Assembly (NCBI RefSeq): GCF_014195485.1 | Contig: NZ_JACIBU010000001.1 | Location: forward strand, 558,001-622,000 | Length of the DNA: 64,000 bases | Origin: Modestobacter versicolor | GTDB taxonomy: Bacteria; Actinomycetota; Actinomycetes; Mycobacteriales; Geodermatophilaceae | Reading direction: 5' to 3' | Shown here: positions 18,749-50,244 of the stretch, in pieces | How the letters are laid out: every line of letters begins with the position of its first letter | Numbering within the stretch: the first letter of the stretch is position 1 | The notes under the pieces: model-generated | Seen by the model: the letters and a program-made list of their open reading frames with translations, nothing else | What the model was told of the DNA's origin: nothing | The model's database searches: none | Translations under genes and position numbers: made by a program

Positions 18749-18832
18749 ATGGTGACCTGGACCACCCGGGCCCGGGACGGTGGCATGACGGCACCTGCGG
18801 CACCGGATCGGTCGCCGCCCGTAGGTCAATCG
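18749..18832 (-). promoter_or_regulatory. Shared-element promoter of metF
   Basis: Minus-strand reading: outer element CGATTGACCTA (18832-18822), then inner element GTCATGCC (18789-18782) whose start is 43 bases on, then 27 bases, then CACCAT (18754-18749) as a weak -10. The outer element fits CNNWTGWC exactly. The inner one keeps GTCAT but ends C instead of G. Of the seven promoters with this layout it has the poorest -10. Confidence 0.55.
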
Positions 18833-18879
18833 TCGCGGTCGCCCCGGCTGCGGCGCCGGGACCGGCCCCGGACGACGGA

Positions 18880-18915
18880 CGCCCGCTCCCCCTGGTGGTC
18901 CGGGAGGAGCGGGCG
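18880..18915 (-). terminator. Terminator of importer operon 1
   Basis: A 10-bp inverted repeat, CGCCCGCTCC (18880-18889) with GGAGCGGGCG (18906-18915), just past the stop of the substrate-binding-protein gene at 18933. Confidence 0.6.
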
Positions 18916-18932
18916 GGTCCGGTCGGTCGAGG

Positions 18933-20204
18933 TCAGAACAGCGGGTCGGTCTCCTCGGCCTGGTACTGCACGGCGACCGCGCTGAGCCCGTAGGGCGTCG
19001 CGGGGTCGTAGGAGTAGATGGTCGTCGACTGGGGGAGCACCCGGTCCTCGGGCTGGCCGAGGGTCAGGTCGCCGTTGAGCCCCTGGAAGTCGATCTTGTC
19101 CATCTCGGTCAGGGCCTGGCGCAGCCCCGGGCCGGAGAGGTCGCCGTCCTCGACGGCCTGCTCGAGCAGCGTGGTGACGGCGACGGCCTGGATGTAGCCG
19201 TAGACGTGCTGCAGGGTCAGGTCGGTGTCGCCCAGCGACTCCTTGAGGATCCGGATCCCCTCGATGGACTCGTCGCTGAGGTCGGCGCCGGGCCCGGTGA
19301 AGAGGACGTTCTCCTGGAGGTACTGCGCGATCGGGGTGCCGGCGAAGGCCGTCGAGTTGGCGATGAACTCGGCGATCCACTGCGGCTTGAAGTCCAGCTG
19401 GGTGGCCGCGGCCACCATCGCCGGGGTGTTGTTCACCGCGCCGCTGAAGGCGACGACCTCGCAGCCGGCCTGCTTGAGCTCCTGCATCTGCGCGGTCAGC
19501 GCGGTGTCCAGCGGGGCGTACCGCTGCACCGAGGTGACCGTGGTGCCCAGCTGCTCGGTGGCGAAGGTCAGCCCCTCCTCGACCGCGTCGCCCCACTCGC
19601 TGTCGTAGCCGAGCTCGCAGTAGACGGCGTCCTTGAGCGAGGGGTCCTGCTCGTTGAGGTAGGCGACCGCGTTGACCACGTTCGTCTGGTACGAGGGGAA
19701 GACCGGCAGCAGGGCCGGCTCGTCGCGCAGCTCGGCCGCCTGGTTGCTCGGCACCGCCACCGCCTCGTCGCGGTTGAGGATCGGCACCAGCGCCTTGACC
19801 GAGGGCGTGCCGAGGATGCCGGAGAGCATCACGACCTCGTCCTTGATCTGCTGGTAGGCCTGCACCGTCACCTGGGCGTCGTACTGGTTGTCCGCGGTGA
19901 CCAGCTCGATCTCGTACTCACCGGCGATGCCGCCGTTGGCGTTGACCTCGTCGAACCAGGCCTGCTGGCCGAGCAGCTGCTCGCGCGCCGTGGCCGAGAT
20001 CGGGCCGCTGAGCGCGACCAGGTTGCCGACCGCGATGGTGCCGGCGTCGGGGTCGAACCCGGGCACGGCGGCCGGCGCGCCGCCGGACCCGGAGTCGTCG
20101 CTCCCGCCGGTGGTGCTCTGCGCACCGCACGCCGTCACGGCCAGCGCGGTGCTCAGGATCAGAGCGGGGATCGGCAGGCCGAGCCCCCGGGGACGGTGCC
20201 TCAT
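18933..20204 (-). CDS. Importer 1 substrate-binding lipoprotein (Peripla_BP_6)
   Basis: 423 residues. The signal peptide ends in lipobox VTAC (LAVTACGAQ), followed by a Gly/Ser linker and the leucine/aromatic-acid binding fold: GTIAVGNLVALSGPISATAREQ, then DNQYDAQVTVQAYQQIKDEVVMLSG. This family feeds Liv- or HAAT-type ABC importers, and in catabolic islands the ligand is often an aromatic acid. It is the last gene of a five-gene minus-strand operon, starting in a 4-base overlap with the permease. The regulatory link to metF and purU argues for a methoxylated aromatic ligand rather than an amino acid. Confidence 0.9.
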   Translation of the reverse strand: MRHRPRGLGLPIPALILSTALAVTACGAQSTTGGSDDSGSGGAPAAVPGFDPDAGTIAVGNLVALSGPISATAREQLLGQQAWFDEVNANGGIAGEYEIELVTADNQYDAQVTVQAYQQIKDEVVMLSGILGTPSVKALVPILNRDEAVAVPSNQAAELRDEPALLPVFPSYQTNVVNAVAYLNEQDPSLKDAVYCELGYDSEWGDAVEEGLTFATEQLGTTVTSVQRYAPLDTALTAQMQELKQAGCEVVAFSGAVNNTPAMVAAATQLDFKPQWIAEFIANSTAFAGTPIAQYLQENVLFTGPGADLSDESIEGIRILKESLGDTDLTLQHVYGYIQAVAVTTLLEQAVEDGDLSGPGLRQALTEMDKIDFQGLNGDLTLGQPEDRVLPQSTTIYSYDPATPYGLSAVAVQYQAEETDPLF

Positions 20205-21352
20205 TGCGTGTCCTCTCGGTGGGTGGTGCGGGGAGGTCGGCCGGCGGTGCCGCCGGACGGTCGGACGGCGCGACGGATGCGTCCGAGGGTGGCCACCAGC
20301 CCCTTGGGCTCGGCCAGCAGGAAGACGACGATCATCGCGCCGTAGAGGATCAGGCTCAGGTCGGTCGTGGTGAGCCCGGCGTTCCCGCCCTGGGCCATGA
20401 ACGGCAGGCTGGTGGCGAACTGGTCGACGAACACCGGCACCAGCGTCACGAACACCGCGCCGAGCACCGGGCCCCACAGCGAGGCCAGCCCGCCGATCAC
20501 GATGATCGCCAGGTACTGCACCGACAGGTCGATGTTGAAGCTGTCGGGGCGGATGTACTCCAGGTTCACCGCGAGCAGCCCGCCGGCGATGCCGCCCAGG
20601 GCGGAGGCCAGCACGAAGGCGTTGGTCTGGGTGCGCATCATCCGGACGCCGAGCACCTCGGCGGCGACGTCGTGGTCGCGGACGGCCTGCATGGCCCGGC
20701 CGCCGCGGGTGCGCATCACGTTGGCCACGACCAGCAGGACCAGCCCCAGGACCGCCCAGATGAGGATGAACAGCCCCTGCTCGCGGGCGAACACCAGCGT
20801 GCCGAGGGTGAGCTCCTCGAAGTCGATCGGCCCCAGGGTGGCCCGGGCCTCGACGATCGTGCCCTCGTTGCCGCCGGTGATCGATCGCAGGTTGCGGGCG
20901 ACGTAGATGCCGATGAAGACCAGCGCCAGCGAGACGATCATCAGGTACGGCCCGCGCAGCCGGAGGGCGAAGGGCGCAACCGCTGCGCCGACCAGGCCGG
21001 CCGCGATGCCCGCTGCCGGCAGCCAGAGGACCATCGGCAGGTCGAGGATGCCGCCCACCCACTGGGCGACGAAGGCCCCGAGCCCGACGAAGAAGGCGTG
21101 GCCGAGGGAGAGCTGGCCGGCGTACCCGGTGAGCACGTTCAGCCCGACCGCGGCGATCGCCGCCACCCCGGCGGCGTTGAGGATGCCCAGCCAGTACGTG
21201 CTGGTCATGTTCAGCGGCACCGCGATCACCAGCACGATGAAGACCAGCACGCCGATCCGGCCGGCCCGGGAGCCCACCAGCCGCAGCGGTGGCACCGTCC
21301 GCTGGGGGGTCGCGAGGGTCGAGCCCGTCGGTGTGGAGACGTCGGTGGCCAT
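20201..21352 (-). CDS. Importer 1 permease, LivM type
   Basis: 383 residues with about nine membrane segments. LivM/branched-chain signatures: LNVLTGYAGQLSLGHAFFVGLGAF near residue 70, LRLRGPYLMIVSLALVFIGIYVARN, the EAA-like loop RTRGGRAMQAVRDHDVAAEVLGV, and the end DLSLILYGAMIVVFLLAEPKGL. ATG at 21352 shares its first base with the LivH stop (TGATG). The C-terminal tail is basic and cytoplasmic. Confidence 0.9.
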   Translation of the reverse strand: MATDVSTPTGSTLATPQRTVPPLRLVGSRAGRIGVLVFIVLVIAVPLNMTSTYWLGILNAAGVAAIAAVGLNVLTGYAGQLSLGHAFFVGLGAFVAQWVGGILDLPMVLWLPAAGIAAGLVGAAVAPFALRLRGPYLMIVSLALVFIGIYVARNLRSITGGNEGTIVEARATLGPIDFEELTLGTLVFAREQGLFILIWAVLGLVLLVVANVMRTRGGRAMQAVRDHDVAAEVLGVRMMRTQTNAFVLASALGGIAGGLLAVNLEYIRPDSFNIDLSVQYLAIIVIGGLASLWGPVLGAVFVTLVPVFVDQFATSLPFMAQGGNAGLTTTDLSLILYGAMIVVFLLAEPKGLVATLGRIRRAVRPSGGTAGRPPRTTHREDTQ

Positions 21353-23899: not shown

Positions 23900-23947
23900 G
23901 ACCGCGCTCCTCAGGGCTGGGTGCGACCCTCGTTGGCCGACGGCCGA

Positions 23948-24063
23948 AACGTAGTGACGGGGGCGGGGGCGCACGAGAGTCCTATGACGTGGGTCACTCA
24001 CCAACTCTCCCGATGGGCCTACGTCATCTGTCCCGGAGCCGGGCGGCCACCGCTCGCTAGCGT
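23948..24063. promoter_or_regulatory. Bidirectional shared-element promoter (importer 1 and acyl-CoA dehydrogenase)
   Basis: CCTATGACGTG (23981-23991) and TACGTCATCTG (24020-24030) form an inverted pair, with 8-base cores at 23981 and 24023 (42 apart). Each acts as the inner element for one direction: 27 bases after the right one is TAGCGT (24058-24063) for the plus strand, and 27 bases after the left one on the minus strand is TACGTT (23953-23948). Neither promoter has a recognisable -35, suggesting activator dependence. Confidence 0.7.
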
Positions 24064-24099
24064 CGGGGGACCGACGAGGCAGCGACGAGGTCAGGGGAC

Positions 24100-25935
24100 A
24101 TGAGCCACTACACCGCCGACCTCCGCGACCTGGAGTTCGACCTGTTCGAGTTCCTGGACTCCCGGGAGCGCTTCGGCACCGGACCGTTCGCGCAGGTGGA
24201 CGCCGAGACCGCCCGCGGGGTGCTCGCCGAGGTGCGCCGGCTGGCCGAGGGGCCGGTCGCCGCGTCCTACGTCGACGCCGACCGCCACCCGCCGGTGTTC
24301 GACCCGGCCACCTCCTCGGTGACGCTGCCCCCGTCGTTCGTGGCCTCGTACCGGGCCTGGCGGGCGGGGGAGTGGTTCCGGCTCGACCTGCCCGAGTCCC
24401 TCGGTGGCTTCGGCGCACCGGCGACGCTGCGCTGGGCGGCCACCGAGATGCTGCTGGGCGCCAACCCGGCCCTGGTCATGTACGGCACCGCGACCACGAT
24501 GAGCACGGTGCTGCACGCGCTGGGCACGCCCGACCAGCAGCGGCTCGGCGAGCTGATGATCGAGCGGGGCTGGGGCGCGACGATGGCGCTCACCGAGCCC
24601 GAGGCCGGCTCCGACGTGGGCGCCGGGCGCACCAGGGCGGTGCGGCAGCCCGACGGCTCGTGGCACCTCACCGGCGTGAAGCGGTTCATCACCGGCGCCG
24701 AGCACGACCTCAGCGACAACATCGTCCACCTGGTGCTGGCCCGACCCGAGGGCGCCGGGCCGGGCACCAAGGGGCTGTCGCTGTTCGTCGTCCCCAAGGT
24801 GCACGTCGACCTGGCCACCGGGGAGCTGGGCGAGCGCAACGGCGTCCACGTCACCGGCGTCGAGAAGAAGATGGGCCTCAAGGTCTCCACCACCTGCGAG
24901 CTGAGCTTCGGCGACACCGGCGTGCCGGCGCAGGGCTGGCTGGTGGGGGAGGTGCACGACGGCATCGCGCAGATGTTCAAGGTCATCGAGTACGCCCGGA
25001 TGGTGGTCGGGGCCAAGGCCGTGGCCACGCTGTCGGCCGGGTACCAGGTCGCGCTGGCCCACGCCAAGGAGCGGGTGCAGGGCGCCGACCTGACCGCGAC
25101 GACGAAGGACGCCCCGCGCGTCACGATCACCCGGCACCCCGACGTCCGCCGCTCGCTGATGCTGCAGAAGGCCTACACCGAGGGCATGCGCGCGCTGTAC
25201 CTGTACACCGCGAGCCTGCGCGACCAGGTGTCGGCGGCGGGGGAGGACGACGGGGAGGCGGCGGCGCTCGCCGAGCGGGTGAACGACCTGCTGCTGCCGG
25301 TCGTGAAGGGCTTCTGCTCCGAGCGGGCCAGCCAGCTGCTGACGGCGGAGACGCTGCAGACCCTGGGCGGCTCCGGCTACCTGCAGGACCACCCGGTCGA
25401 GCAGTACGTGCGCGACTCCAAGATCGACACCCTCTACGAGGGGACGACGGCGATCCAGGGCCAGGACCTCTTCTTCCGCAAGATCGTCCGGGACGGCGGG
25501 GTGGCCCTGGGCTGGCTGGTCGGCCAGGTCGGCGCGACGGCCGCGCCGCGCACCGGGCCGGACGCCCTCGCGGTCGAGCGGCGCCGGCTCGCCACGGGCC
25601 TCGCCGACCTGCAGGGCACGGTGGCCGCGCTGTTCGGCTTCCTGGCCGACGCGGAGCAGGACCGCACGGCGCTCTACCGGATCGGGCAGCACACCACGCG
25701 GCTGCTGCTGGCCACCGGCGACCTGCTCACCGGCTGGCTCCTGGTGCGCCAGGCCGAGGTCGCGCTGGCCGCGCTGGCCGGCGAGGTCCCCGAGGCCGAC
25801 CGGTCCTTCTACGAGGGGAAGCTGGCGGCGGCGCACTTCTTCACCGGCGAGGTGCTGCCCCGGCTCGCGGCCGACCGGGTCGTGGTCGAGAGCACCGACG
25901 ACTCGCTCATGGCGGCGCCCGAGCGCGTGCTCTGA
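24100..25935 (+). CDS. Acyl-CoA dehydrogenase family protein (long, FadE5/DmdC-like)
   Basis: 611 residues, much longer than the 380-400 of simple members. The N-terminal helical domain is followed by the FAD/substrate part (ALTEPEAGSDVGAGRT; KRFITGAEHDLSDN), the catalytic-base region DTLYEGTTAIQGQDLFFRKI and an extra C-terminal helical domain (about residues 480-600). This architecture is that of FadE5 and 3-methylmercaptopropionyl-CoA dehydrogenase. Substrate unknown. It shares the divergent promoter with importer 1 and the island's regulatory element, so an aromatic side-chain (phenylpropanoid-CoA) or a C1-linked role is possible. ATG at 24100 has GACGAGG / AGGGG upstream. Confidence 0.88.
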   Translation: MSHYTADLRDLEFDLFEFLDSRERFGTGPFAQVDAETARGVLAEVRRLAEGPVAASYVDADRHPPVFDPATSSVTLPPSFVASYRAWRAGEWFRLDLPESLGGFGAPATLRWAATEMLLGANPALVMYGTATTMSTVLHALGTPDQQRLGELMIERGWGATMALTEPEAGSDVGAGRTRAVRQPDGSWHLTGVKRFITGAEHDLSDNIVHLVLARPEGAGPGTKGLSLFVVPKVHVDLATGELGERNGVHVTGVEKKMGLKVSTTCELSFGDTGVPAQGWLVGEVHDGIAQMFKVIEYARMVVGAKAVATLSAGYQVALAHAKERVQGADLTATTKDAPRVTITRHPDVRRSLMLQKAYTEGMRALYLYTASLRDQVSAAGEDDGEAAALAERVNDLLLPVVKGFCSERASQLLTAETLQTLGGSGYLQDHPVEQYVRDSKIDTLYEGTTAIQGQDLFFRKIVRDGGVALGWLVGQVGATAAPRTGPDALAVERRRLATGLADLQGTVAALFGFLADAEQDRTALYRIGQHTTRLLLATGDLLTGWLLVRQAEVALAALAGEVPEADRSFYEGKLAAAHFFTGEVLPRLAADRVVVESTDDSLMAAPERVL

Positions 25936-26065
25936 CCCCGCCGGTGGTGGCCCGCGGCCCCGGCCGGTGACGCGACCGGGCGCCCGCTCCTTAGGGTGGG
26001 CCCGGCAGCTGCGCCGCCCGCCGGGCGCGCACGCGTGCCACGATCTCCCCAGGGTGGCCGGGGCC

Positions 26066-27718
26066 ATGGCCACGACCGCGGCGACGATGCCGTGCTGGAA
26101 GGTGGGTCCGGTGGAGGCATCAGGAGGAACGGCGGTCGGCACGCGGACCGCTGCGGTCACGGCGGCCGACGACGTCGTGCGGCACGCCCCCGACGGCCTG
26201 GCCGTCATCGACGCCGACGCGCGCTTCGTCGAGGCGAACCCGGCCGCCGTGCTGCTGTGCGGCCTGGACCCGGAGCGGGTCGCGGGTGCGCCCTCGCCGT
26301 TCGCCGCCCCCGACGAGGCGGCCGCCGCCGGCCGGTCCGGTGAGCTGACCGTGGCCTGGGAGCCGGTGGCCGGCCAGCGGCGCGAGTTCGCCTACGTGCT
26401 CTCCCCGGTCCCCGGCCAGCGCCGGTGGATCGTGTCCTTCCGCGACGTCACGCTGAGCCGGCTCCGCGAGCGGCGGCTCGCCGCGATCGCCAAGGCCGCC
26501 TCCAGCGTCGCGTCCAAGCGCTCGCTGGTCGGCACCCTGGAGGCGCTGGCCCACGAGGTGGCGCGCACGGACTCGCTGGCCGGCGTCCAGGTGATGACGG
26601 TCAACTCGACCGGCAACCGGCTGCACGTCGTCGGCGCCTCCGGGTTCGGGCGGCACGCCGACTTCTTCGACAAGCTGATGGAGTGCCGGGCGCTCGGCGC
26701 CCGGCTGATGATGCTCGAGGCGCTGGAGACCCGGCAGCCGATCGTGGCGCCCAGCCGCTACGAGGCCGTCATGCGCGACCCGGCGTGGGCGCCGCTCAAG
26801 GAGCTCATGCGCCACCCCCGGTGGGACTGGTTCGTCAGCGTCCCGCTCCTCGCCGGCGGCGAGCCGGTCGGCATCCTGAACGCCTTCTTCGCCCCCGGCC
26901 AGGTCGTCGGGGACACCGAGCTGGAGTTCCTGCTGGCGATGGCCGAGCAGGCCGCGATGGCCGTCGACCACGCCGCACTGCTGGAGTGGGAGCGCGACGT
27001 CGCCCGGCGCGAGGAGCGCCAGAAGCTGGCCCGGGACCTGCACGACTCGGTGGTCCAGCAGGTGTTCTCGATGATGATGCAGGCCCGGTCGCTGGGGGTG
27101 CTGGTGGCCCGCGGGCTGCCGCCCACGCCCGAGAAGCTGGCCCAGGTGGCCGACGACCTGAGCAGCAGCGCCCAGGACGTGCTGGTGGACCTGCGCGGCA
27201 TGGTGGTCGAGCTGCGGCCCGCGGCCGCCACGGCCGGGGGGCTCGCCGCGGCGCTGCGCTCGCTGGTCGACAGCACCGCCGCGCGCACCGGCATGACCGT
27301 CTCGCTGGACGTCGTCGACCAGGCCGACGAGCTGGCCGCGCTGGACGCCGCCCTGCTGGAGGACGTCTACCGGGTGGTGGCCGAGGCGCTGCACAACAGC
27401 GTCAAGCACGCCGAGGCCGACCAGATCCACGTCCGGCTGGCGGTGACCGCCCACGGGCGGCGCCGGCGGCTGGTCGCCGAGGTCACCGACGACGGCCGGG
27501 GGATGGGCGCCTCGAGCGACGCCGCCCGCACCGCGGACTGCGCCTCGAGCGGGTTCGGCATGACGGTGATGCGCGAGCGCGCCGCCCGCTGGGGCGGCGC
27601 CGTCCGGGTGCGGCAGCCGGCCGCCGGTGGCACCAGCGTGCTGCTGAGCCTGCCGCTGCCGACCTCGCTCCCGGCCACCCCGGCCAGCCCGCCGACCCAC
27701 GAGGAGAACGCACCGTGA
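26066..27718 (+). CDS. Sensor histidine kinase with PAS and GAF domains (HisKA_3)
   Basis: 550 residues from the ATG at 26066. A PAS-like domain (VRHAPDGLAVIDADARFVEANPAA) is followed by a GAF domain (about residues 160-310, SLAGVQVMTVNSTGNRLHVVGASGFG to EFLLAMAEQAAMAVDHAALLEWE), a HisKA_3 dimerisation helix with the phospho-His in KLARDLHDSVVQQVFSMMMQARS, and a HATPase (ALHNSVKHAEADQIHVRL, DDGRGMG, GFGMTVMRERAARWGG). No membrane segment: a cytoplasmic sensor, recalling NarX-like or StyS/TodS-type aromatic sensors. GTG at 26111 with GGAAGG upstream is an alternative start. A TAGGGT hexamer at 25992 may be its own -10. It overlaps the regulator gene by 4 bases. Confidence 0.86.
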   Translation: MATTAATMPCWKVGPVEASGGTAVGTRTAAVTAADDVVRHAPDGLAVIDADARFVEANPAAVLLCGLDPERVAGAPSPFAAPDEAAAAGRSGELTVAWEPVAGQRREFAYVLSPVPGQRRWIVSFRDVTLSRLRERRLAAIAKAASSVASKRSLVGTLEALAHEVARTDSLAGVQVMTVNSTGNRLHVVGASGFGRHADFFDKLMECRALGARLMMLEALETRQPIVAPSRYEAVMRDPAWAPLKELMRHPRWDWFVSVPLLAGGEPVGILNAFFAPGQVVGDTELEFLLAMAEQAAMAVDHAALLEWERDVARREERQKLARDLHDSVVQQVFSMMMQARSLGVLVARGLPPTPEKLAQVADDLSSSAQDVLVDLRGMVVELRPAAATAGGLAAALRSLVDSTAARTGMTVSLDVVDQADELAALDAALLEDVYRVVAEALHNSVKHAEADQIHVRLAVTAHGRRRRLVAEVTDDGRGMGASSDAARTADCASSGFGMTVMRERAARWGGAVRVRQPAAGGTSVLLSLPLPTSLPATPASPPTHEENAP

Positions 27719-28377
27719 CCGCACCGGACCCGATCCGGGTCCTCGTCGTCGACGACCACGCGGTGGTCCGCCGGGGCGTGGTCGCCTACCTGGAGGCCCT
27801 CGCCGACGTCGAGGTGGCCGACGAGGCCGGCGACGGGCAGGAGGCGCTGGACCGGCTCGCCCGGGCGTCCGCGCACGGCGAGCTGCCCGACGTCGTCCTG
27901 ATGGACCTGCAGATGCCCGGGATGGACGGGGTCACCGCGACCGCGGAGGTGCTGCGCCGGTTCCCGCAGCTGAAGGTGGTCATCCTGACCAGCTTCGGGG
28001 AGACCGAGCGGGTGCACGCGGCCCTGGCCGGCGGGGCCTCCGGGTACCTGCTCAAGGACGCCGGCCCGGCCGAGGTCGACGCCGCGCTGCGGGCCGCGGT
28101 CCGCGACGAGGTCTTCCTCGACGCGGCCGTCACCCGGCGGCTCACCCAGGAGATCCGGGCGCCGCGCACCGGGATCGGCGTGCTCACCGCCCGGGAGAAG
28201 GAGGTGCTCGTGCTGGTCGCGGAGGGCCGGTCCAACAAGGACATCGCCGAGCACCTGGTGATCAGCGAGCGGACGGCGCGCACCCACGTCAGCCACCTGC
28301 TGGCCAAGATGGGGCTCACCTCCCGGACGCAGGCTGCCCTGCTGGCGGTCAAGGAGGGCCTGGTCCAGCCGCGCTGA
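27715..28377 (+). CDS. NarL/LuxR-type response regulator
   Basis: 220 residues. Receiver domain with RVLVVDDHAVVRRG, the phospho-acceptor in VVLMDLQMPGMDG, and LTSFGETE / GYLLKDAGP (Thr and Lys switch residues). The C-terminal LuxR HTH is LTAREKEVLVLVAEGRSNKDIAEHLVISERTARTHVSHLLAKMG in outline. It forms a two-component system with the overlapping kinase gene. Position between promoters that carry the shared island element makes it one of two candidate binders; the other is the IclR protein at 40943-41716. Confidence 0.93.
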   Translation: MTAPDPIRVLVVDDHAVVRRGVVAYLEALADVEVADEAGDGQEALDRLARASAHGELPDVVLMDLQMPGMDGVTATAEVLRRFPQLKVVILTSFGETERVHAALAGGASGYLLKDAGPAEVDAALRAAVRDEVFLDAAVTRRLTQEIRAPRTGIGVLTAREKEVLVLVAEGRSNKDIAEHLVISERTARTHVSHLLAKMGLTSRTQAALLAVKEGLVQPR

Positions 28378-28390
28378 CGCCGGGTGCCGT

Positions 28391-28474
28391 CATTTGTCGC
28401 GCCCGCCGCGCGACAGCGGCGCGCACCCGGACCGTCAAGCGGGCGATCCGCCGACCTCCCCGGCTCCCTACCGT
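28391..28474 (+). promoter_or_regulatory. Shared-element promoter of the ferredoxin gene
   Basis: Outer element CATTTGTCGCG (28391-28401), inner element GTCAAGCG (28434-28441; start-to-start 43), 27 bases, then TACCGT (28469-28474). The outer element fits CNNWTGWCGYR fully. The inner one fits GWCAWNNG. Confidence 0.6.
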
Positions 28475-28837: not shown

Positions 28838-28871
28838 CCGGCACCCGACCCGGACGGGTGGGCCGCCACGA

Positions 28872-28955
28872 CGGATGACGTAGCCGGCTCCTGCCGCGGC
28901 GGTGGCCACGTCGTGACATCGGGCCGATCCCGTCCGCCGTCGCCGTGCCTAGCGT
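28872..28955 (+). promoter_or_regulatory. Shared-element promoter of the hydrolase-ligAB operon
   Basis: Outer element CGGATGACGTA (28872-28882), inner GACATCGG (28915-28922; start-to-start 43), 27 bases, TAGCGT (28950-28955). Both elements match CNNWTGWCGYR / GWCAWNNG. Predicted transcript start is about 28962, 55 bases before the ATG. Confidence 0.65.
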
Positions 28956-31355: not shown

Positions 31356-32717
31356 TCAGCGGGAGCGGTAGCCCTCCCGGGCGAAGTCGACGAACGGGAC
31401 CGGCGCGACGGTGGCCCGGATCTCCACCTGGCGGTGCTCCTCGACCGCCGGCTTGCCCGAGACCGGCTGCTCGCCCCACAGCACCGTCACCTCGGTGCCC
31501 GGCGCGGCGTGCTCGTTCGCGATCGTGGCCAGCGAGACCATCGCCCGCTCGTTGGCCAGGTAGCCGCAGTCCAGCGAGATGCCGACCTGCTGCCCGTCGA
31601 CGAGCACGGCGTCCTCGTGGTGGGTGGCGTAGCGGATCTTGGGCAGGTCCATGTACTTGGCGCCCGGGCCCGGCCGGTAGAGGGAGCCGATCGCGGCGGT
31701 CACGTCGTCGGCGTCCCAGACCAGGGTCACCTTCTGCCGCGGCGGGGCCTCGGCCAGCCGCTCCAGGGCCGCCCGGCCGATGAAGTCGTGGTCGAACTTC
31801 ACCGTCTTGCCGTACCCGAGGTCGTACGGCGTCAGGTACCAGTCGGCGATGTCGGTGGCCGCGTGGCTGCCGCCGATGGAGCCGACCTTCGTCGCGGGCA
31901 GCCACTCGCGGTACTCGGCCATCAGCGGGTCGTCGCCGAAGAGCGCGGTCATCGGCGCGGGCGCCCAGCCGGACTCCAGGTTGGCGGTCGAGTACGCCTT
32001 CGCGCCGACCCGGACCAGGCCGTGCCGGGCGTCGGCGCCGAGCAGCGCGCCCAGCACCGCCTCGGCGTCCTCCCAGGGCCCGAAGAGCTCGTAGCCGGGC
32101 TGGCCGGCCATGCCGTGCCGCAGCGCTCGGACCCGGCGGCCGGCGATGGTGAACTCCGCCATGGCGAAGAACCTCACCTCCGGGAGCGGACCGCCGGTCA
32201 CCTCCTCCATCAGCGCCGCGGCCGTCGGCCCCTGCAGCTCGTAGCGGTACAGCCGCGGCGGCCCCGAGGCGCGGACGGCGGAGTTGTCGTCGCGCTCCGC
32301 GGTGGCCTCGTAGCTGCCCCGCTCGAGGTTGAAGGTGACCCAGTCGATGACCATCGGGTGCCCGACCAGGTCGAACAGCTCGTCCTCGAGGTGGAAGAGG
32401 ATGGCGTCGCCGATCAGGTGGCCGTCGGGGGAGACGGCGACGAACTGCTTGGCCCGGCCCACGCCGAAGTTCGCGAACGTGTTGACGCCGACGTCGCTGA
32501 GCAGCTGGAGCGCCCCGGGGCCGGAGAGGAACAGGTCGGTCATGTGGTGCGACTGGTCGAGCAGCGCGCAGGACTCCACCCACGACCGCTGCTCGGAGCG
32601 CCAGTTGGTGAACTCGGGCTGCACCGGGAACGTGCTGGGCGGGAACGCGAGGTTCCGCAGCAGCTCGACCGGGCTGCCGGCGCGGGCGAGGGCTGCAGCG
32701 AGTGTCTCGGAGGTCAT
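31356..32717 (-). CDS. THF-dependent aryl O-demethylase, DesA/LigM-like (paralogue 1)
   Basis: 453 residues, GcvT-like fold. Moves the methyl group of a methoxy-aromatic acid to tetrahydrofolate. EFTNWRSEQRSWVESCALLDQSHHMTDLF near residue 35-62 and AKAYSTANLESGWAPAP near 240-255 are the LigM/DesA signatures. The catalytic Tyr equivalent is Y242 and the Trp is W251. Where LigM has an Arg that contacts the substrate carboxylate (GRAPG at 120-124 in paralogue 2), this protein has GHPMV, so its substrate probably differs (syringate-type, inferred). The only shared-element O-demethylase promoter lies at 32811-32894. Confidence 0.88.
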   Translation of the reverse strand: MTSETLAAALARAGSPVELLRNLAFPPSTFPVQPEFTNWRSEQRSWVESCALLDQSHHMTDLFLSGPGALQLLSDVGVNTFANFGVGRAKQFVAVSPDGHLIGDAILFHLEDELFDLVGHPMVIDWVTFNLERGSYEATAERDDNSAVRASGPPRLYRYELQGPTAAALMEEVTGGPLPEVRFFAMAEFTIAGRRVRALRHGMAGQPGYELFGPWEDAEAVLGALLGADARHGLVRVGAKAYSTANLESGWAPAPMTALFGDDPLMAEYREWLPATKVGSIGGSHAATDIADWYLTPYDLGYGKTVKFDHDFIGRAALERLAEAPPRQKVTLVWDADDVTAAIGSLYRPGPGAKYMDLPKIRYATHHEDAVLVDGQQVGISLDCGYLANERAMVSLATIANEHAAPGTEVTVLWGEQPVSGKPAVEEHRQVEIRATVAPVPFVDFAREGYRSR

Positions 32718-32810: not shown

Positions 32811-32894
32811 ACGCTAGGGAGTCCCGCTGTGCCGCGGATCACGCAGATGACCATGATCTCGGGTCACCCGGTACCGGGGCGGACGCGACATCTG
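32811..32894 (-). promoter_or_regulatory. Shared-element promoter of O-demethylase paralogue 1
   Basis: Minus-strand reading: outer CAGATGTCGCG (32894-32884), inner GTCATCTG (32851-32844; start-to-start 43), 27 bases, TAGCGT (32816-32811). Identical inner element and spacing to the acyl-CoA dehydrogenase and purU promoters. Confidence 0.7.
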
Positions 32895-32926
32895 ACCTAC
32901 CGCCCCGCGGAAGGGGGCTGGACACA

Positions 32927-32981: not shown

Positions 32982-34720
<1,739 letters not shown>

Positions 34721-40867: not shown

Positions 40868-40880
40868 CACCGGCGTGGCA

Positions 40881-40942: not shown

Positions 40943-41716
40943 CTAGCCGGGGCGTGCCGGGTCGGCTGTCGGTCTGCGCAGCGCCCGGGAGATGCCGAGC
41001 GCGCTGGCCAGCAGCAGCGGCACCAGCGCCGGTCCCCGGCCGTCGTTGGGCACGATCACCGACAGCGAGGCGACGACCCGGCCGCCGCCGTCGCGCACCG
41101 GGACGGCCACCCCCGTCGCGTCCTCGTGCTGGTGGCCGTCGAGCACGGCCGCGTGGCCGCGGCGCACCTCGGCCAGGGCGGCCCGCAGCACCGCGGGGGA
41201 GCGGAACCCGGCCGGGGTGATCGGCCGCAGCGGTGCGGCCAGCACCTGCTCCTGCAGCTCGTGCGGGGCGTGCGCGAGCAGCACCAGCCCCGACGACGAG
41301 GTGGGCAGCGGCAACCGGCCGGCGATCCGGGAGAAGTTGACCACGGCGTCGCGTGCGGTGAGCCGCTCCAGGAACAGCACGTCGGTGCCGTCGAGCACCC
41401 CGAGCTGGACGTGGTGGCCGACGACCGCGTGCACGTCCTCCAGGAACGGCATGGCGGCGTCCCGCAGGGTGAGCGTCGGGGAAGCCCGCGCGCCCAGCTC
41501 CCACAGCCGCACGCCGACTCGCACCCGGCGGTCCGGCGTCCGCTCCAGCAGCCCGTGCGCGACGAGCTCGCCGACGATCCGGGACGCCGTGGCGACGTGC
41601 AGGCCGCTGCGCCGGGCGACCTCGCCCACGGTGAGCGTCGGCTCGTCGGCGGTGAAGGCGTCGAGCACCCGCACCGCACGTGCCAGCACCGACTCGCCGG
41701 TCGGGGTCCGCGCCAT
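40943..41716 (-). CDS. IclR-family transcriptional regulator
   Basis: 257 residues. N-terminal winged HTH (VLARAVRVLDAFTADEPTLTVGEVARRSGLHVATASRIVGELVAHG in outline, residues 10-55) and C-terminal IclR effector domain (LFLERLTARDAVVNFSRIAGRLPLPTSSSGLVLLAHAP; VAVPVRDGGGRVVASLSVIVP). IclR proteins of aromatic pathways (PcaU, PobR, PcaR) bind the substrate and usually activate. It is divergent from the reductase-P450 operon, with a 13-base palindrome between. It is one of two candidates for the shared island element. Confidence 0.92.
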   Translation of the reverse strand: MARTPTGESVLARAVRVLDAFTADEPTLTVGEVARRSGLHVATASRIVGELVAHGLLERTPDRRVRVGVRLWELGARASPTLTLRDAAMPFLEDVHAVVGHHVQLGVLDGTDVLFLERLTARDAVVNFSRIAGRLPLPTSSSGLVLLAHAPHELQEQVLAAPLRPITPAGFRSPAVLRAALAEVRRGHAAVLDGHQHEDATGVAVPVRDGGGRVVASLSVIVPNDGRGPALVPLLLASALGISRALRRPTADPARPG

Positions 41717-41749
41717 GCCCCGAGTGTGACACCGGTCTCCCGTCCATTG

Positions 41750-41762
41750 AGAAGCCGCTTCT
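41750..41762. promoter_or_regulatory. Palindrome in the IclR / reductase-P450 divergent region
   Basis: AGAAGC-C-GCTTCT, a perfect 13-base dyad, 34 bases before the IclR start and 51 bases before the reductase start. A plausible IclR operator by size and position; no clear -10/-35 pair is seen on either side. Confidence 0.45.
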
Positions 41763-41812
41763 GCCCCCTCCGTCCGGGCCGCACGCTGGGCGACGACGAC
41801 GAGGAGGTCGGC

Positions 41813-42796
41813 GTGCTCGGAGTGGAGCAGGTGGACGCCCGCTGGCGCAGCGGGACGGACCGCACGGTGGTGCGGGTGCAGGACAAGGTCCAGGTGGCCG
41901 AGGGCGTCGTGACGCTGACGCTCACCGCCCCGGACGGCGGGCGGCTGCCGGACTGGACGCCCGGGGCGCACGTCGACCTGACCCTGGAGAACGGCCTCAC
42001 CCGCCAGTACTCGCTGTGCGGCGACCGCTGGGACGCGCACAGCTACCGGGTCGGCGTGCTGCTGGAGCCGGCCGGGCGCGGCGGGTCCAGCTACGTGCAC
42101 GAGCAGCTCGAGCCGGGGCACGTCCTCGGGCTCGGCGGCCCGCGGAACAACTTCCCGCTGGTGCCGGCGGAGTCCTACCTGTTCGTGGCCGGGGGCATCG
42201 GCATCACCCCGGTCCTGCCGATGATCGCCCAGGCCGACCTGCTGGGCGCTGACTGGCAGCTGCTCTACGGCGGCCGGACCCGCAGCTCGATGGCGTTCCT
42301 GGACGAGCTGTCCGCGCACGGCGACCGGGTGCAGGTGCGCCCCCAGGACGAGTTCGGGCTCCTCGACCTGCCCGCCTTCCTCGGCGAGCCGCGGCCCGGC
42401 ACGCCGGTCTACGCGTGCGGGCCGGCGCCCCTGCTGGCCGCGCTGGAGACCGCCTGCGCCGGCTGGCCGGCCCGCGCGCTGCACACCGAGCGCTTCGTCG
42501 CCGCCGACCAGGGCGCCCCGGTGCGCACCACGGCCTTCGACGTCGAGCTGCACCGCTCCGGCCGCACCGTGACGGTCACGCCGGACACCTCGGTGCTCGA
42601 GGCGCTGGCCGCGGCCGGCGTCGAGGTGCTGTCCTCCTGCCGGCAGGGCACCTGCGGCACCTGCGAGACCACCGTGCTCGCCGGCGTGCCCGACCACCGC
42701 GACTCGCTGCTGGACGACGACGAGCGGGCCGCCGGCGACTGCATGTACCCCTGCGTCTCCCGGTCGTGCAGCGACCGCCTCGTCCTCGACCTCTGA
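41813..42796 (+). CDS. PDR/VanB-type ferredoxin reductase ([2Fe-2S] at C-terminus)
   Basis: 327 residues: a flavin domain (RQYSLCGDRWD, the RxYS motif), an NAD domain (VAGGIGITPVLPMIAQADLLG and YACGPAPLLAALE), and a C-terminal plant-type [2Fe-2S] domain (SCRQGTCGTCETTVLAG plus a fourth Cys near CMYPCVSRS). This is the order of phthalate dioxygenase reductase and VanB. GTG at 41813 has GAGGAGG 6 bases upstream. The next gene is a P450, 13 bases on, so the pair is a two-gene monooxygenase in which a PDR reductase replaces the usual ferredoxin plus ferredoxin reductase. Confidence 0.9.
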   Translation: MLGVEQVDARWRSGTDRTVVRVQDKVQVAEGVVTLTLTAPDGGRLPDWTPGAHVDLTLENGLTRQYSLCGDRWDAHSYRVGVLLEPAGRGGSSYVHEQLEPGHVLGLGGPRNNFPLVPAESYLFVAGGIGITPVLPMIAQADLLGADWQLLYGGRTRSSMAFLDELSAHGDRVQVRPQDEFGLLDLPAFLGEPRPGTPVYACGPAPLLAALETACAGWPARALHTERFVAADQGAPVRTTAFDVELHRSGRTVTVTPDTSVLEALAAAGVEVLSSCRQGTCGTCETTVLAGVPDHRDSLLDDDERAAGDCMYPCVSRSCSDRLVLDL

Positions 42797-42809
42797 TCCG
42801 GAGAAGACC

Positions 42810-44018
42810 ATGACGCTGCTCTCCACCTCCGCCGACCTGCCGGTCGACGACACCGACCCCTTCGGGCACGAGGTCCTCGAGGACCCGCTCCCGTTCCACC
42901 ACGCCCTGCGCGAGGCCGGGCCGGTGGTGTACCTGAGCCGGTACGACGTCCACGCGCTCGGCCGCTACGAGGAGGTGCACGCCGCGCTCGTGGACTGGCA
43001 GCGGTTCCAGTCCGCCGCCGGCGTGGGCCTGTCCAACTTCCGCACCGAGGAGCCGTGGCGGCCGCCGAGCCTGCTGCTGGAGGCCGACCCGCCGCGGCAC
43101 GACGCGCCCCGACGGGTGCTGGCCTCCGTCCTCGGCCCGCGGGCGCTGCGCACGCTGCGGGACCGGTGGACCGCCGATGCCGAGAGCCTGGTCGACGAGG
43201 TCCTCGCCGCAGGCACCGAGTTCGACGTCGTCCCCACGTTGGCCGAGGCGTTCCCGCTGCGGGTCTTCCCCGACGCGGTCGGCATCGGGAACGAGGGGCG
43301 GGAGAACCTGCTGCCCTACGGCGACCACGCGTTCAACGCCTTCGGCCCGGCCAACGACCTGGTGGCCAAGGGCGCGCACCGGGTCGCCGAGCTGTCCGGC
43401 TGGGTGGGCGAGCAGTGCGCCCGCGACGCGCTCACCGACGACGGCTTCGGCGCCGCCATCTGGGCGGCCGCCGACCGCGGTGAGATCACCCCGCAGCAGG
43501 CGCCGCTGGTGGTCCGGTCGCTGCTCACCGCCGGCGTCGACACCACGGTGCACGCGCTCTCGGCGATCCTCTACGCCTTCGCGACGAACCCCGACCAGTG
43601 GGCCCGGCTGGTCGCCGACCCGTCGCTCGCCCGGGTGGCCTTCGACGAGGCGATCCGCTGGGAGTCACCGGTCCAGACCTTCTTCCGGACCACCACCACC
43701 GACGTCCGGATCGGCGACGTCGTCGTCCCCGAGGGCCGCAAGGTGCTGATGTTCCTGGCCGCGGCCAACCGCGACCCGCGGCGCTGGGCCGACCCGGACC
43801 GCTTCGACCTCGGCCGCGACCCCTCCGGCCACGTCGGCTTCGGCATGGGCCTGCACCAGTGCGTCGGCCAGCACGTCGCCCGGCTGGAGGCCGAGGCGGT
43901 GCTGACCGCGCTGACCCGCCGGGTGCGCACGATCGAGCTCACCGGGCCGACGCAGCGGCACCACAACAACACGCTGCGCGCCTTCGGCAGCGTCCCCGTC
44001 AGGCTGACCGTCCGCTGA
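42810..44018 (+). CDS. Cytochrome P450, CYP199-like
   Basis: 402 residues. Heme loop FGMGLHQCVGQHVARLE with the Cys ligand, the I-helix oxygen motif LLTAGVDTTVHAL, and the ExxR region FDEAIRWESP. The overall sequence (HALREAGPVVYLSRYDVHALGRYEEVHAAL, in outline) resembles CYP199A para-methoxybenzoate O-demethylases, which would fit the island; this is by resemblance, not proof. GGAGAAG lies 9 bases before the ATG. Probably reduced by the preceding protein. Confidence 0.9.
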   Translation: MTLLSTSADLPVDDTDPFGHEVLEDPLPFHHALREAGPVVYLSRYDVHALGRYEEVHAALVDWQRFQSAAGVGLSNFRTEEPWRPPSLLLEADPPRHDAPRRVLASVLGPRALRTLRDRWTADAESLVDEVLAAGTEFDVVPTLAEAFPLRVFPDAVGIGNEGRENLLPYGDHAFNAFGPANDLVAKGAHRVAELSGWVGEQCARDALTDDGFGAAIWAAADRGEITPQQAPLVVRSLLTAGVDTTVHALSAILYAFATNPDQWARLVADPSLARVAFDEAIRWESPVQTFFRTTTTDVRIGDVVVPEGRKVLMFLAAANRDPRRWADPDRFDLGRDPSGHVGFGMGLHQCVGQHVARLEAEAVLTALTRRVRTIELTGPTQRHHNNTLRAFGSVPVRLTVR

Positions 44019-44034
44019 CCGCCCGCTGACCGTT

Positions 44035-44067: not shown

Positions 44068-44101
44068 ATTGTTGACGATCCCGCGCACCGCGCACTAGCT
44101 T
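44068..44101 (+). promoter_or_regulatory. Lower-pathway operon promoter with GntR-type operator
   Basis: TTGACG (44072-44077), 18 bases, TAGCTT (44096-44101). The -35 lies in ATTGTTGACGAT (44068-44079), half-sites ATYGT/ACRAT. It is the same motif, in the same position relative to the -35, as at importer 2 (36075-36086). Confidence 0.7.
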
Positions 44102-44128
44102 CCAGGTCACCGGACCGAGGAGGCGACG

Positions 44129-46553: not shown

Positions 46554-46558
46554 TGCAG

Positions 46559-46611
46559 GGCCTCGTCCTCCTCACCCCTCGCACGCTCGGGGTGCGCCTC
46601 GGGACGAGGCC
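46559..46611 (+). terminator. Intra-operon compound hairpin (attenuator or processing site)
   Basis: Outer arms GGCCTCGTCC (46559-46568) and GGACGAGGCC (46602-46611) with inner arms CACCCC (46573-46578) and GGGGTG (46589-46594). It lies in the 101-base gap between the tautomerase and the VOC gene, the only real gap in this otherwise overlapping operon, so it may set a partial terminator or an mRNA end. Confidence 0.6.
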
Positions 46612-46654
46612 GTGAGACCGCCCCCGCACGACACCTGACTCGAAGGAGAGCCCC

Positions 46655-47611: not shown

Positions 47612-48387
47612 GCACCCGGATCGCCGTCCTCGGCCTCGGTGAGGCCGGCTCGGAGATCGCCCGCGACCTGGTCGCCGCCGGGGCCGACGTGCGGGGCTAC
47701 GACCCCAAGGGGCTCCGGGTGGGCGGCGTGCAGGAGCGGGGGAGCGAGGCGGCGGCGGTCGCCGACGCCGACTGGGTGCTGAGCGTCAACAGCTCCCACG
47801 ACGCGATGACCGCGCTGACCAACGCGCTGCCCGCGCTCCGGCCCGGCACCGTCTGGGCCGACCTCAACACCGCCGCCCCGGCGCTCAAGACCGCCCTCGC
47901 GGCGGCCGCCGGGGAGGCGGTGCAGGTGGTCGACGTGGCGCTGATGGCGCCGGTGCCGGGCAAGGGGCTCCGGACGCCGATGCTGGTGTCCGGGCCGGCG
48001 GCCGAGCGCTACGCGACCGTGCTGTCCGGCCTCGGTGCCGAGGTCACCGTGCAGCCCGGGCCGGTCGGCGAGGCCATCTCCCGCAAGCTGCTGCGCAGCG
48101 TGTTCTACAAGGGGCTGGCGGCGGCGGTCGTGGAGGCCCTGGCCGCCGCCGAGCAGGCCGGTTGCGCCGACTGGCTGCGGGGCAGCATCAGCGCCGAGCT
48201 GGCCGGCTTCGACGACCGCTCGATCGACCGGCTGGTCGACGGCACGCACCGGCACGCCCGCCGTCGGGCCGACGAGATGGCCGCCGCCACCGAGCAGCTG
48301 GTCGACCTGGGCGTGCAGCCGCGCATCGCCGCGGCCGCCCGCGACCTGCTCGTCCAGCTCCGCGACACCCAGGAGGCAACACCGTGA
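47608..48387 (+). CDS. NAD(P)-dependent oxidoreductase, 6-phosphogluconate dehydrogenase-like (DUF1932)
   Basis: 259 residues. N-terminal Rossmann domain TRIAVLGLGEAGSEIARDLVAAGADVRGYDP, then VSVNSSHDAMTAL, and a helical C-terminal DUF1932 domain (KLLRSVFYKGLAAAVVEALAAAEQAG). The family includes 3-hydroxyisobutyrate dehydrogenase relatives. The LigC step of the protocatechuate route needs an NADP dehydrogenase of a different (Gfo/Idh) family, and this protein might replace it; that is a guess from position. Coupled to neighbours by 4-base overlaps. Confidence 0.82.
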   Translation: MSTRIAVLGLGEAGSEIARDLVAAGADVRGYDPKGLRVGGVQERGSEAAAVADADWVLSVNSSHDAMTALTNALPALRPGTVWADLNTAAPALKTALAAAAGEAVQVVDVALMAPVPGKGLRTPMLVSGPAAERYATVLSGLGAEVTVQPGPVGEAISRKLLRSVFYKGLAAAVVEALAAAEQAGCADWLRGSISAELAGFDDRSIDRLVDGTHRHARRRADEMAAATEQLVDLGVQPRIAAAARDLLVQLRDTQEATP

Positions 48388-49400
48388 TCATCGACTGCCA
48401 CGGCCACTACACGACCGCGCCGGCCGCGCACACGGCCTGGCGGGAGGCGCAGGTCGCCGCCTGGGAGGCCGGCACCAGCGCACCGGCCTACCCGGTGATC
48501 AGCGACGACGAGATCCGGGAGACGATCGAGGGCAGCCAGCTGCGGCTGATGGACGAGCGCGGCATCGACCTGACGGTCTTCTCCCCGCGCGCCTCGGCGA
48601 TGGCCCACCACGTGGGCGACGCCGCGGTGAGCCTGGAGTGGGCTCGCCGCTGCAACGACCTGATCGCCCGGGTCACCGCCCTCTACCCGGACCGGTTCGT
48701 CGGCGTCGCGCAGCTGCCGCAGTCGCCGGGCGAGCCGATCGAGGGCTCGATCGCCGAGCTGCGGCGCTGCGTCGAGGAGCTGGGCTTCATCGGCTGCAAC
48801 CTCAACCCCGACCCCAGCGGCGGGTTCTGGACGTCGCCGCCGCTGACCGACCGCAGCTGGTACCCCTTCTACGAGGCCATGGTCTCCCTCGACGTGCCGG
48901 CGATGGTGCACGTCTCGGCGTCGGCGACCCCGGTGTTCCACGCGACCGGCGCCTACTACATCAACGCCGACACCACGGCGTTCATGCAGCTGCTGCAGGG
49001 CTCGCTCTTCACCGACCTGCCCGACCTGCGGCTAGTGATCCCGCACGGCGGGGGAGCGGTGCCATACCACTGGGGCCGCTACCGCGGGCTGGCGGACATG
49101 CTCGGCCAGCCGCCGGTGGAGTCCAACGTCATGGGCAACGTCTTCTTCGACACCTGCGTCTACCACCAGCCGGGCATCGACCTGCTGCTGGACGTGATCG
49201 ACACCCGCAACGTGCTGTTCGGGTCGGAGATGGTCGGCGCGGTGCGCGGCATCGACCCGCGGACCGGGCACCACTACGACGACACCCGCCGCTACGTCGA
49301 GGCGTCCGCGCTGGACACCGACGCCCGGACGGCGGTCTTCGAGGGCAACGTCCGGCGGGTGTACCCGCGGCTCGAGGCGCGGCTGGGCGCCCAGCGGTGA
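48384..49400 (+). CDS. ligJ: 4-oxalomesaconate hydratase (LigJ type, amidohydrolase fold)
   Basis: 338 residues. Metal-binding IIDCHGHYTTAPAAH (HxH), middle AMVHVSASATPVFHATGAYYINADTTAFMQLL, and PHGGGAVPYHWGRYRGL with late VLFGSEMVGAVRGIDP. LigJ adds water to OMA to give CHA. The amidohydrolase family also contains decarboxylases (ACMSD type), but the strong order match and operon with LigK and tautomerase favour hydratase. GTG at 48384 has GGAGG upstream. Last operon gene; the downstream gap to the ABM gene is 22 bases. Confidence 0.9.
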   Translation: MIIDCHGHYTTAPAAHTAWREAQVAAWEAGTSAPAYPVISDDEIRETIEGSQLRLMDERGIDLTVFSPRASAMAHHVGDAAVSLEWARRCNDLIARVTALYPDRFVGVAQLPQSPGEPIEGSIAELRRCVEELGFIGCNLNPDPSGGFWTSPPLTDRSWYPFYEAMVSLDVPAMVHVSASATPVFHATGAYYINADTTAFMQLLQGSLFTDLPDLRLVIPHGGGAVPYHWGRYRGLADMLGQPPVESNVMGNVFFDTCVYHQPGIDLLLDVIDTRNVLFGSEMVGAVRGIDPRTGHHYDDTRRYVEASALDTDARTAVFEGNVRRVYPRLEARLGAQR

Positions 49401-49422
49401 CCCCGGTCCCCGGGGCGGCCGC

Positions 49423-50052
49423 TCAGGTCGTCTCGGGGACCCGCAGGTGCGCGATCGGCACGTCGAACTCGGCGCTGTCGACCACCTCGATGCCCATCGC
49501 GGGGGCGAACTCGTCGCGGAACTCCCGCGCGCCCTCGCCGGCCTGCGCGAACGTGTCGTCGCTGTCGTAGGAGATGGCGGCGACGGCCAGCCCCTCGGAC
49601 CGTCGGACCATGATGCTGACGCTGCAGAACCCCGGCAGGTCGTCGAGCTTGGGCATCAGCGACAGCCGGACGGCGTCGACGGCGCGGTCGACGGCGTCGG
49701 GGGCGGTGCGCAGCCAGGTCACCCGCGAGCGGGCCGCCTGCCGCGCCTCCAGCACCCGGTGCATCGCCGCGATCTCCCACTCCTGCAGCTCCGGCTCCCC
49801 GCCGAGGATCTCCGCGGTGCGCTGCGCCGAGGCGCGCACGCCCTCGCGGCTGGCGCGCATCGCCGCCTCGTCCCGCCAGGAGGTGGTCACGATGCACCGG
49901 CCCGAGGCGGGGTCGGCCAGCATCGACAGGCCGACGCAGCCGTCCATCGCCCGGACCTCCGGCATGACCTCGTCGCGGACGAAGTCCGTCGCCGCGCCGA
50001 CCGAGCCGGGGTCGCCGTGGATGGTGGTGGACCGGGCGTGCATGTCGGCCAT
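49423..50052 (-). CDS. Tandem antibiotic-biosynthesis-monooxygenase (ABM) domain protein
   Basis: 209 residues with two dimeric alpha/beta-barrel modules. Module 1 (residues about 2-95) has RSTTIHGDPGSVGAATDFVRDEVMPEVRAMDGCVGLSMLAD, and module 2 (about 110-205) has RLSLMPKLDDLPGFCSVSIMVRRSEGLAVAAISYDS. Fusing two half-sites could give a pseudo-dimer. No catalytic residue is clear, so it may be a cofactor-free oxygenase or a binding protein. ATG at 50052 with AGGAGG 4 bases upstream is preferred over 50043. Divergent from purU. Confidence 0.75.
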   Translation of the reverse strand: MADMHARSTTIHGDPGSVGAATDFVRDEVMPEVRAMDGCVGLSMLADPASGRCIVTTSWRDEAAMRASREGVRASAQRTAEILGGEPELQEWEIAAMHRVLEARQAARSRVTWLRTAPDAVDRAVDAVRLSLMPKLDDLPGFCSVSIMVRRSEGLAVAAISYDSDDTFAQAGEGAREFRDEFAPAMGIEVVDSAEFDVPIAHLRVPETT

Positions 50053-50160
50053 GCGTCCTCCTGGTGCAGCAGGGGCGTCGTCCACGCCGGTGGCGCAGCA
50101 GACAGCGTGCCCGCTGCCGGGCGGGGGGCGACAGTCACGGACGACCGGTCCGGCCTACGT

Positions 50161-50244
50161 CGATTGTCGCGGCCTGGGTCACACCTCCTGCACGCCGGGA
50201 GAGGTCATCTGCGGTACCCGTCACACCGTTTCGCTGCGTAGGTT
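50161..50244 (+). promoter_or_regulatory. Shared-element promoter of purU
   Basis: Outer element CGATTGTCGCG (50161-50171), inner GTCATCTG (50204-50211; start-to-start 43), 27 bases, TAGGTT (50239-50244). Predicted transcript start is about 50251. The same inner 8-mer and spacing occur at the O-demethylase (32844) and acyl-CoA dehydrogenase (24023) promoters. Confidence 0.7.

Follow-up and report, generated by a model that had tools for sequence, protein, structure and literature searches.

When a 64-kb stretch of Modestobacter versicolor DNA was analysed (C1:558001-622000 of a 4.59-Mb genome; this whole stretch is called the window), one shared promoter element of the activator type was found to unite an O-demethylation island, and best-candidate scans found nothing comparable elsewhere in the genome. 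The element had been proposed in an original prediction, whose coordinates and letters were correct as given. It is composed of a strong outer site, a weaker inner site and a -10, and comparison of sequences argues that it very probably serves a two-component regulon as operator and promoter, with the NarL-type response regulator (27715-28377) as the activator. Through this single pair of sites ahead of each operon, the soil actinomycete appears to turn on its genes for the use of methoxylated, lignin-type aromatics. The predicted regulon covers the two O-demethylases of the island, which we take to be LigM-like, protocatechuate 4,5-cleavage, metF and purU, and the operon of the regulator and its sensor kinase probably belongs to it as well.

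The pattern CNNWTGWC/GWCAWNNG at a spacing of 42-43 bases was present at five places (23981/24030, 28391, 28872, 32894 on the minus strand and 50161), and just one further pair was found in the window when all remaining spacings between 10 and 129 were counted. When the 23981 region was counted in both directions, six oriented matches had a TANNNT at exactly 35 bases from the start of the inner element, versus none in 300 simulated windows (first-order Markov). The 27 bases claimed between the inner element and the -10 held for these five pairs and six promoters. The metF promoter, listed as a full member, departs from the pattern: its inner letters, GTCATGCC, break the inner pattern and its -10 is CACCAT. 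Its arrangement is retained in seven related genomes (L057, L058, L059 and L162-L165) with CACCAT or CACGAT and scores of 17-22, and on these sequences metF is judged a weaker but true member.

As the pattern was derived from the window sites, held-out tests were relied on. The first used 21 public loci (401 kb) whose regulator is about 60 % or more identical; there the spacing peaked at 43 (10 distinct pairs), 44 (8) and 42 (4), with a mean of 0.33 pairs over the remaining 117 spacings, and TANNNT stood 35-36 bases after the inner start in 21 of the 22 pairs. Near-duplicate loci occur in this set, which left 16 non-redundant sites. Spacings of 42-44 were outside the ten commonest in 59 comparison loci (1.04 Mb). 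This set included L083 and L126, with regulators 68 and 56 % identical; after their removal (57 loci, 998 kb) three places scored >14, one of which (18.3) was >16. In the second held-out test, a matrix trained on nine sites from other families only gave 48.7, 39.3, 34.7, 33.4, 24.8 (importer direction) and 20.2 (metF) for the window promoters, compared with a best score of 14.1 in 380 kb of the same genome. A matrix from all 16 non-window sites gave 19.9-54.4 for the six promoters and at best 15.2 in the 380-kb sample. Six of the seven promoters that had been joined are thereby retained.

Two sequence models were also built, R1 from the seven window promoters and R2 from 29 sites. All places found by them in the genome were in the island, eight for R1 (E up to 0.05; best 150 first-look candidates scored) and five for R2 (E up to 1e-4; best 38 scored). 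Since just the best first-look candidates were scored, weak sites elsewhere could be lost. R1 was dropped because it was over-fitted to the spacers, and R2 and the held-out matrices were used instead.

When 22 non-redundant sites (six from the window and 16 others) were aligned, the outer element showed the consensus TACGTC(A/G)N(A/T)TGTCGYR, a 16-bp palindrome TACGWCA-NN-TGWCGTA with a 7-2-7 layout. Conservation extends to positions outside the search patterns, namely G and W of the left flank (22/22 each) and the GYR tail that had been bracketed earlier (G 19/22, Y 22/22 and R 22/22). Mirrored complementarity was 91/176 at the 7-2-7 centre and 65/154 at the next best centre, with some positions set by the search pattern; L224 holds a near-perfect copy. 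The two elements had been described as inverted copies of an 11-base motif. They are more than that: the inner element is a weaker copy of the palindrome, and the inverted look arises in part because only half of the palindrome was seen. The left half of the inner element (GTCA) is strong and its right half degenerate, and the site at 24020-24035, inner for the acyl-CoA dehydrogenase-like gene (acd), is a good palindrome. At the -35 position the inner element passes into a conserved GATCCG, which we read as a non-consensus but conserved -35, and the consensus of the -10 is TANNGT. Outer and inner centres are 44-46 bp apart and, if the -10 starts at -12, would be placed near -87 and -42.5, respectively.

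A symmetric matrix trained without the window found six window places with scores of at least 14 and none in the 380 kb of genome. One of the six, at 34625-34640, was new and was assigned to O-demethylase 2. In the O-demethylase 2 promoter of three Blastococcus loci (L059-L061), two palindromes 21 bp apart are located 83-84 and 104-105 bases above TACGCT; the window promoter has a strong upstream palindrome, a degenerate middle one and TAGGCT at 105 bases. The letters thus compared point to an eighth promoter, at 34640-34530, which had been overlooked. The spacing was counted for 69 strong outer sites that have both an inner site and a -10. It was 42-45 in 59, 21 in five and 70-93 in five, and in each of the last five a nearer outer site uses that inner site and -10 as well. 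A two-helical-turn spacing at every promoter was kept only in part on these counts. A weakly conserved GAC, which may be a further half-site, was observed in the between-site spacer of many promoters (alignment A2, columns 28-30).

Targets were surveyed in 39 related loci, the window being left out (L059 and L218/L219 are apparently one contig), with a matrix partly trained on the same loci and with labels for homologs of window genes only. Of 85 pairs scoring >22, 68 were within 600 bases upstream of a same-strand island-homolog gene: hydrolase (13), O-demethylase 2 (13), O-demethylase 1 (12), the ferredoxin gene (10), purU (7), metF (6), ligA (3), the RraA-type gene (2), MIase (1) and reductase (1). 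The other 17 had no labelled gene, and none of the 85 was inside one.

The proposed activator consists of a receiver domain, whose signature residues look intact by eye, and a GerE/LuxR helix-turn-helix, and its partner kinase is of the HisKA_3 type (Pfam). The kinase has the H-box ARDLHD and no clear membrane span (highest 19-residue hydropathy 1.34), and was matched in 22 of 23 regulator loci. Among the solved-structure matches of the regulator, DevR ranked fifth of seven (E 6e-33) after VraR and NarL entries, a ranking by similarity and not a tree. Its closest named relatives are from Modestobacter (95 %) and Blastococcus (87-91 %). All listed relatives with >62.4 % identity have the recognition-helix stretch ISERTARTHVS, which differs in L004, the sole own-genome paralog listed, and in the distant relatives listed. 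Homologs of ligM, ligAB, metF or purU adjoin the regulator in Modestobacter, Blastococcus, Pseudonocardia, Mycobacterium sp. AT1, Acrocarpospora, Nonomuraea, a Streptomyces, Prauserella, Quadrisphaera, Phycicoccus and Phytoactinopolyspora, with a gene set that varies by genome; five of the 23 regulator loci (L073-L076 and L126) have none of them beside the regulator. Loci L073-L077 (Pseudonocardia and Amycolatopsis), of other gene content, encode regulators that are 60-62 % identical and have a recognition helix that is nearly the same. The strong pairs observed there are confined to L075 and L076 and lie about 8-10 kb away from the regulator.

Co-occurrence was examined in 112 genomes of the family, with sites counted at R2 E up to 1e-4 and the regulator at E up to 1e-60; in these large scans the best 38 or 10 first-look candidates per genome were scored. 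Sites were found in 36 genomes and the regulator in 41, with both in 35, sites only in one, regulator only in six and neither in 70 (Fisher p 1e-21). All 27 genomes with a regulator at least 82 % identical had sites. Three of the six regulator-only genomes hold related sites, as a pair at spacing 21 (G005 and G081) or a strong single site beside the regulator (G012); in the others (G074, G078 and G011) no sites were found in the 15, 15 and 6 kb examined. O-demethylase 2 (E up to 1e-120) was present in 31 genomes, all with regulator and sites, so linkage alone could explain those 31. In the 81 genomes without it, both were found in four, sites only in one, regulator only in six and neither in 70 (p 6e-4). 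A sample of 394 genomes of the class gave both in six, sites only in one, regulator only in six and neither in 381. The matches in the sites-only genomes, G109 and G387, seem to be due to chance, with no palindrome >13 in 15 kb of the former and a single one of 14.7 in 3 kb of the latter. In G008 the regulator (64 %) is 136 kb from a near-ideal pair that fronts a purU-folD-metF-ligM cluster. This genome was rejected as a case of sites without regulator, which it had seemed at an E 1e-80 cut-off, as its regulator was just below that cut-off. In the cluster itself (L157 10126-14521), demethylation adjoins one-carbon disposal behind the one pair. Not all genome pairs are independent (L057/G007, L058/G016 and L059/G061 are near-duplicates), and R2 training loci may be of the same species as some of the genomes, G242 and G311 included.

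Several observations weigh against the NarL-type regulator as activator of such a regulon. No pair >12 was found near regulators 56-62 % identical in L074, L077 and L126, and no strong site in the 15, 15 and 6 kb of L214-L216, which have regulators in the same range. L126 and L215 retain ISERTARTHVS and yielded no strong site, and the helix alone therefore does not predict sites. Mirrored complementarity of the inner element was just 47/176. The seventh promoter originally joined, in the acd direction, scored 14.8 and 13.4 with the held-out matrices, level with background; it is marginal, and autoregulation would depend on it. Moreover, part of the co-occurrence is joint inheritance, because sites and regulator are mostly in one island.

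An activator encoded elsewhere, with the response regulator just travelling with the island, would fit the same linkage: in most genomes the regulator is linked to the target genes, and O-demethylase 2, regulator and sites were together in 31/31. We consider this improbable, as the association survives in genomes without O-demethylase 2 and in other families, the sites show the 7-2-7 geometry of NarL-type proteins, and strong sites are located right beside the regulator gene in L166, L209, L211 and L213, where no O-demethylase was labelled. It is less probable still, indeed very unlikely, that the sites are bound by the IclR-family regulator (40943-41716), which had also been suggested as a binder. 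Its gene is in the island, IclR proteins often control aromatic catabolism, and IclR was present in nine of ten site-bearing genomes of the genus. However, among 23 genomes of the genus IclR was found in 16, seven of which have no sites, and the tenth site-bearing genome, G015 (80 % complete), has no IclR; the association gave p 0.09 for IclR versus 4e-4 for the response regulator. Many site-bearing loci have no IclR match in the stretch examined (in G007 it is just beyond that stretch). In the window and in L060, L061 and L157 the IclR gene is divergent to a reductase-P450 pair, which is its likelier target.

The most remote of the alternatives, which we regard as scarcely credible, is that an alternative sigma factor reads the paired element, which would then be an unusual promoter working without an activator and not an operator. 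It would account for the conserved GATCCG near -35 and the TANNGT at -10. The best conserved part is nevertheless the outer palindrome, and at about 80-95 bases ahead of the predicted start it lies beyond usual sigma contacts. The symmetry of the outer element also argues against a sigma factor.

From the sites, their spacing, the position of the -10 and the association with the regulator, all read from the sequence, we infer how binding, phosphorylation, binding order, ligand and transcript starts may fit together under the NarL-type regulator. The cytosolic PAS-GAF kinase (25967-27718) would sense an aromatic substrate or intermediate, most likely an aromatic acid, and phosphorylate the regulator. 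A regulator dimer would occupy the strong outer palindrome and assist the binding of another dimer at the weaker inner site, which abuts the GATCCG, and the inner dimer would recruit RNA polymerase to the -10. The O-demethylases, protocatechuate 4,5-cleavage, methyl-tetrahydrofolate handling (metF and purU) and the importer would be switched on, probably together with the regulator's own operon, and the result would be cooperative, activator-dependent expression. The cooperation step is modelled on DevR and the tandem-site layout on ogt.

The features of the window are listed in Table 1. Besides metF and purU, the island holds a branched-chain-amino-acid-type importer (importer 1), acd, the kinase, the regulator and a 2Fe-2S ferredoxin gene. 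Hydrolase-MIase-ligA-ligB, the two GCV_T-fold O-demethylases, a transporter and a second importer also belong to it, as do a lower pathway of GntR-RraA-PrpF type and the IclR gene with the reductase-P450 pair. The reductase-P450 pair, possibly guaiacol O-demethylase-like (window 40943-44018 with the divergent IclR gene), has no site of at least 14 in front and is thus probably a separate regulatory unit. A lone moderate palindrome (score 12.3) at 46627-46642, just ahead of a glyoxalase-type gene, is too close to the gene start for a usual activator site. Genes of folP-like (pterin-binding), Mur-ligase (possibly FolC-like) and pabB-aminotransferase type at 12282-17330 adjoin the tetrahydrofolate-using island, and an additional folate supply from them is possible. 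Rfam gave zero matches in the 64-kb window.

Table 1 Genes and predicted promoter elements of the island in the window (window positions)
Feature	Position	Strand	Basis or remark
metF	17801-18829	minus	island gene
acd, acyl-CoA dehydrogenase-like, first gene of kinase-regulator operon	24100..25935	+	Pfam
Sensor kinase (PAS, GAF, HisKA_3, HATPase), presumed partner of regulator	25967..27718	+	Pfam; start codon not fixed
NarL-type response regulator, proposed activator	27715..28377	+	Pfam Response_reg, GerE
O-demethylase 1	31356-32717	minus-strand promoter	
O-demethylase 2	32982-34382	minus-strand promoter	
purU	50308-51180	plus-strand promoter	
metF outer 7-2-7 site	18822..18837	minus	palindrome score 17.5; pair 20.2 with other-family matrix; retained in relatives
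metF inner site, weak	18777..18792	minus	letters; relatives
metF -10-like CACCAT	18749..18754	minus	CACCAT or CACGAT in relatives
Strong 7-2-7 site, intergenic between importer 1 and acd-kinase-regulator operon (importer outer, acd inner)	24020..24035	minus	score 19.1
Weak site (importer inner, acd outer)	23976..23991	minus	score 7.7
Importer 1 -10 TACGTT	23948..23953	minus	letters, spacing
acd-kinase-regulator operon -10 TAGCGT	24058..24063	+	direction marginal by matrix score
Ferredoxin gene, outer site	28386..28401	+	pattern, matrix and palindrome scans
Ferredoxin gene, inner site	28431..28446	+	pattern, matrix
Ferredoxin gene, -10 TACCGT	28469..28474	+	pattern, spacing
Hydrolase-MIase-ligAB, outer site	28867..28882	+	palindrome score 19.8; matrix
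Hydrolase-MIase-ligAB, inner site	28912..28927	+	pattern, matrix
Hydrolase-MIase-ligAB, -10 TAGCGT	28950..28955	+	pattern, spacing
O-demethylase 1, outer site	32884..32899	minus	palindrome score 19.1; top pair of window, 48.7
O-demethylase 1, inner site	32839..32854	minus	pattern, matrix
O-demethylase 1, -10 TAGCGT	32811..32816	minus	pattern, spacing
O-demethylase 2, upstream-most 7-2-7 site, absent from original prediction	34625..34640	minus	score 19.1; like site at same place in three Blastococcus loci
O-demethylase 2, degenerate middle site	34604..34619	minus	by eye; position of a palindrome in L059-L061
O-demethylase 2, probable -10 TAGGCT	34530..34535	minus	105 bases from upstream site, cf. 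TACGCT in L059
purU, outer site	50156..50171	+	palindrome score 19.7; matrix
purU, inner site	50201..50216	+	pattern, matrix
purU, -10 TAGGTT	50239..50244	+	pattern, spacing

The layout has precedents. The kinase of the mycobacterial DevR/DosR system is GAF-type, as here, and its site sequence is unlike the one described here. According to PMC3029386, DevR/DosR also resembles the present system as a NarL-subfamily regulator with a start-proximal site overlapping the -35, high- and low-affinity sites bound cooperatively and autoregulation of its operon; it differs in that its sites are closely packed (here mostly 44-46 bp apart, 23 bp at a minority) and that it responds to hypoxia, not aromatics. 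NarL dimer sites, as described in PMC7419079, are two 7-base elements inverted around 2 bp. The Escherichia coli ogt promoter, described in the same paper, likewise has tandem 7-2-7 sites and NarL-type activation, with one site abutting the -35 (centre -44.5) and the other upstream (-77.5); its centre spacing is 33 bp, its site sequence is another, its signal is nitrate, and it is a single promoter, not a whole catabolic regulon. BphS1T1 of Rhodococcus jostii RHA1, as cited in PMC11881993, is an actinobacterial two-component control of aromatic catabolism with a shared 24-bp promoter sequence, a likeness by description and not by sequence, and its targets are biphenyl and related dioxygenase genes. 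The earlier remark that no described regulon with this layout was known is thus too broad as regards the layout (ogt, DevR). As regards the regulon, the listings of open-licence literature searches showed none like it and no two-component regulator for tetrahydrofolate-dependent O-demethylation or protocatechuate 4,5-cleavage.

This is, then, a real regulon of a known kind, absent from the literature listings searched, in which the pairing of regulator and pathway and the fixed geometry are new, and not the principle. In a wider and tentative proposal, which we hold to be quite possible, a cytosolic PAS-GAF system would sense methoxylated or dihydroxylated lignin aromatics and couple O-demethylation to one-carbon disposal (metF, purU and folD), as an undescribed regulon of several actinobacterial families with a rigid promoter on which regulator dimers would sit at intervals of about two helical turns (the outer site mostly 43 bp above the inner, in some cases 21 and in one, judged by eye, 64). 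Both tetrahydrofolate-dependent O-demethylation and protocatechuate 4,5-cleavage hold a central place in lignin use. A candidate regulator, operator, promoter layout and set of target genes are now named for them, which makes the proposal directly testable and usable to predict missing pathway genes.

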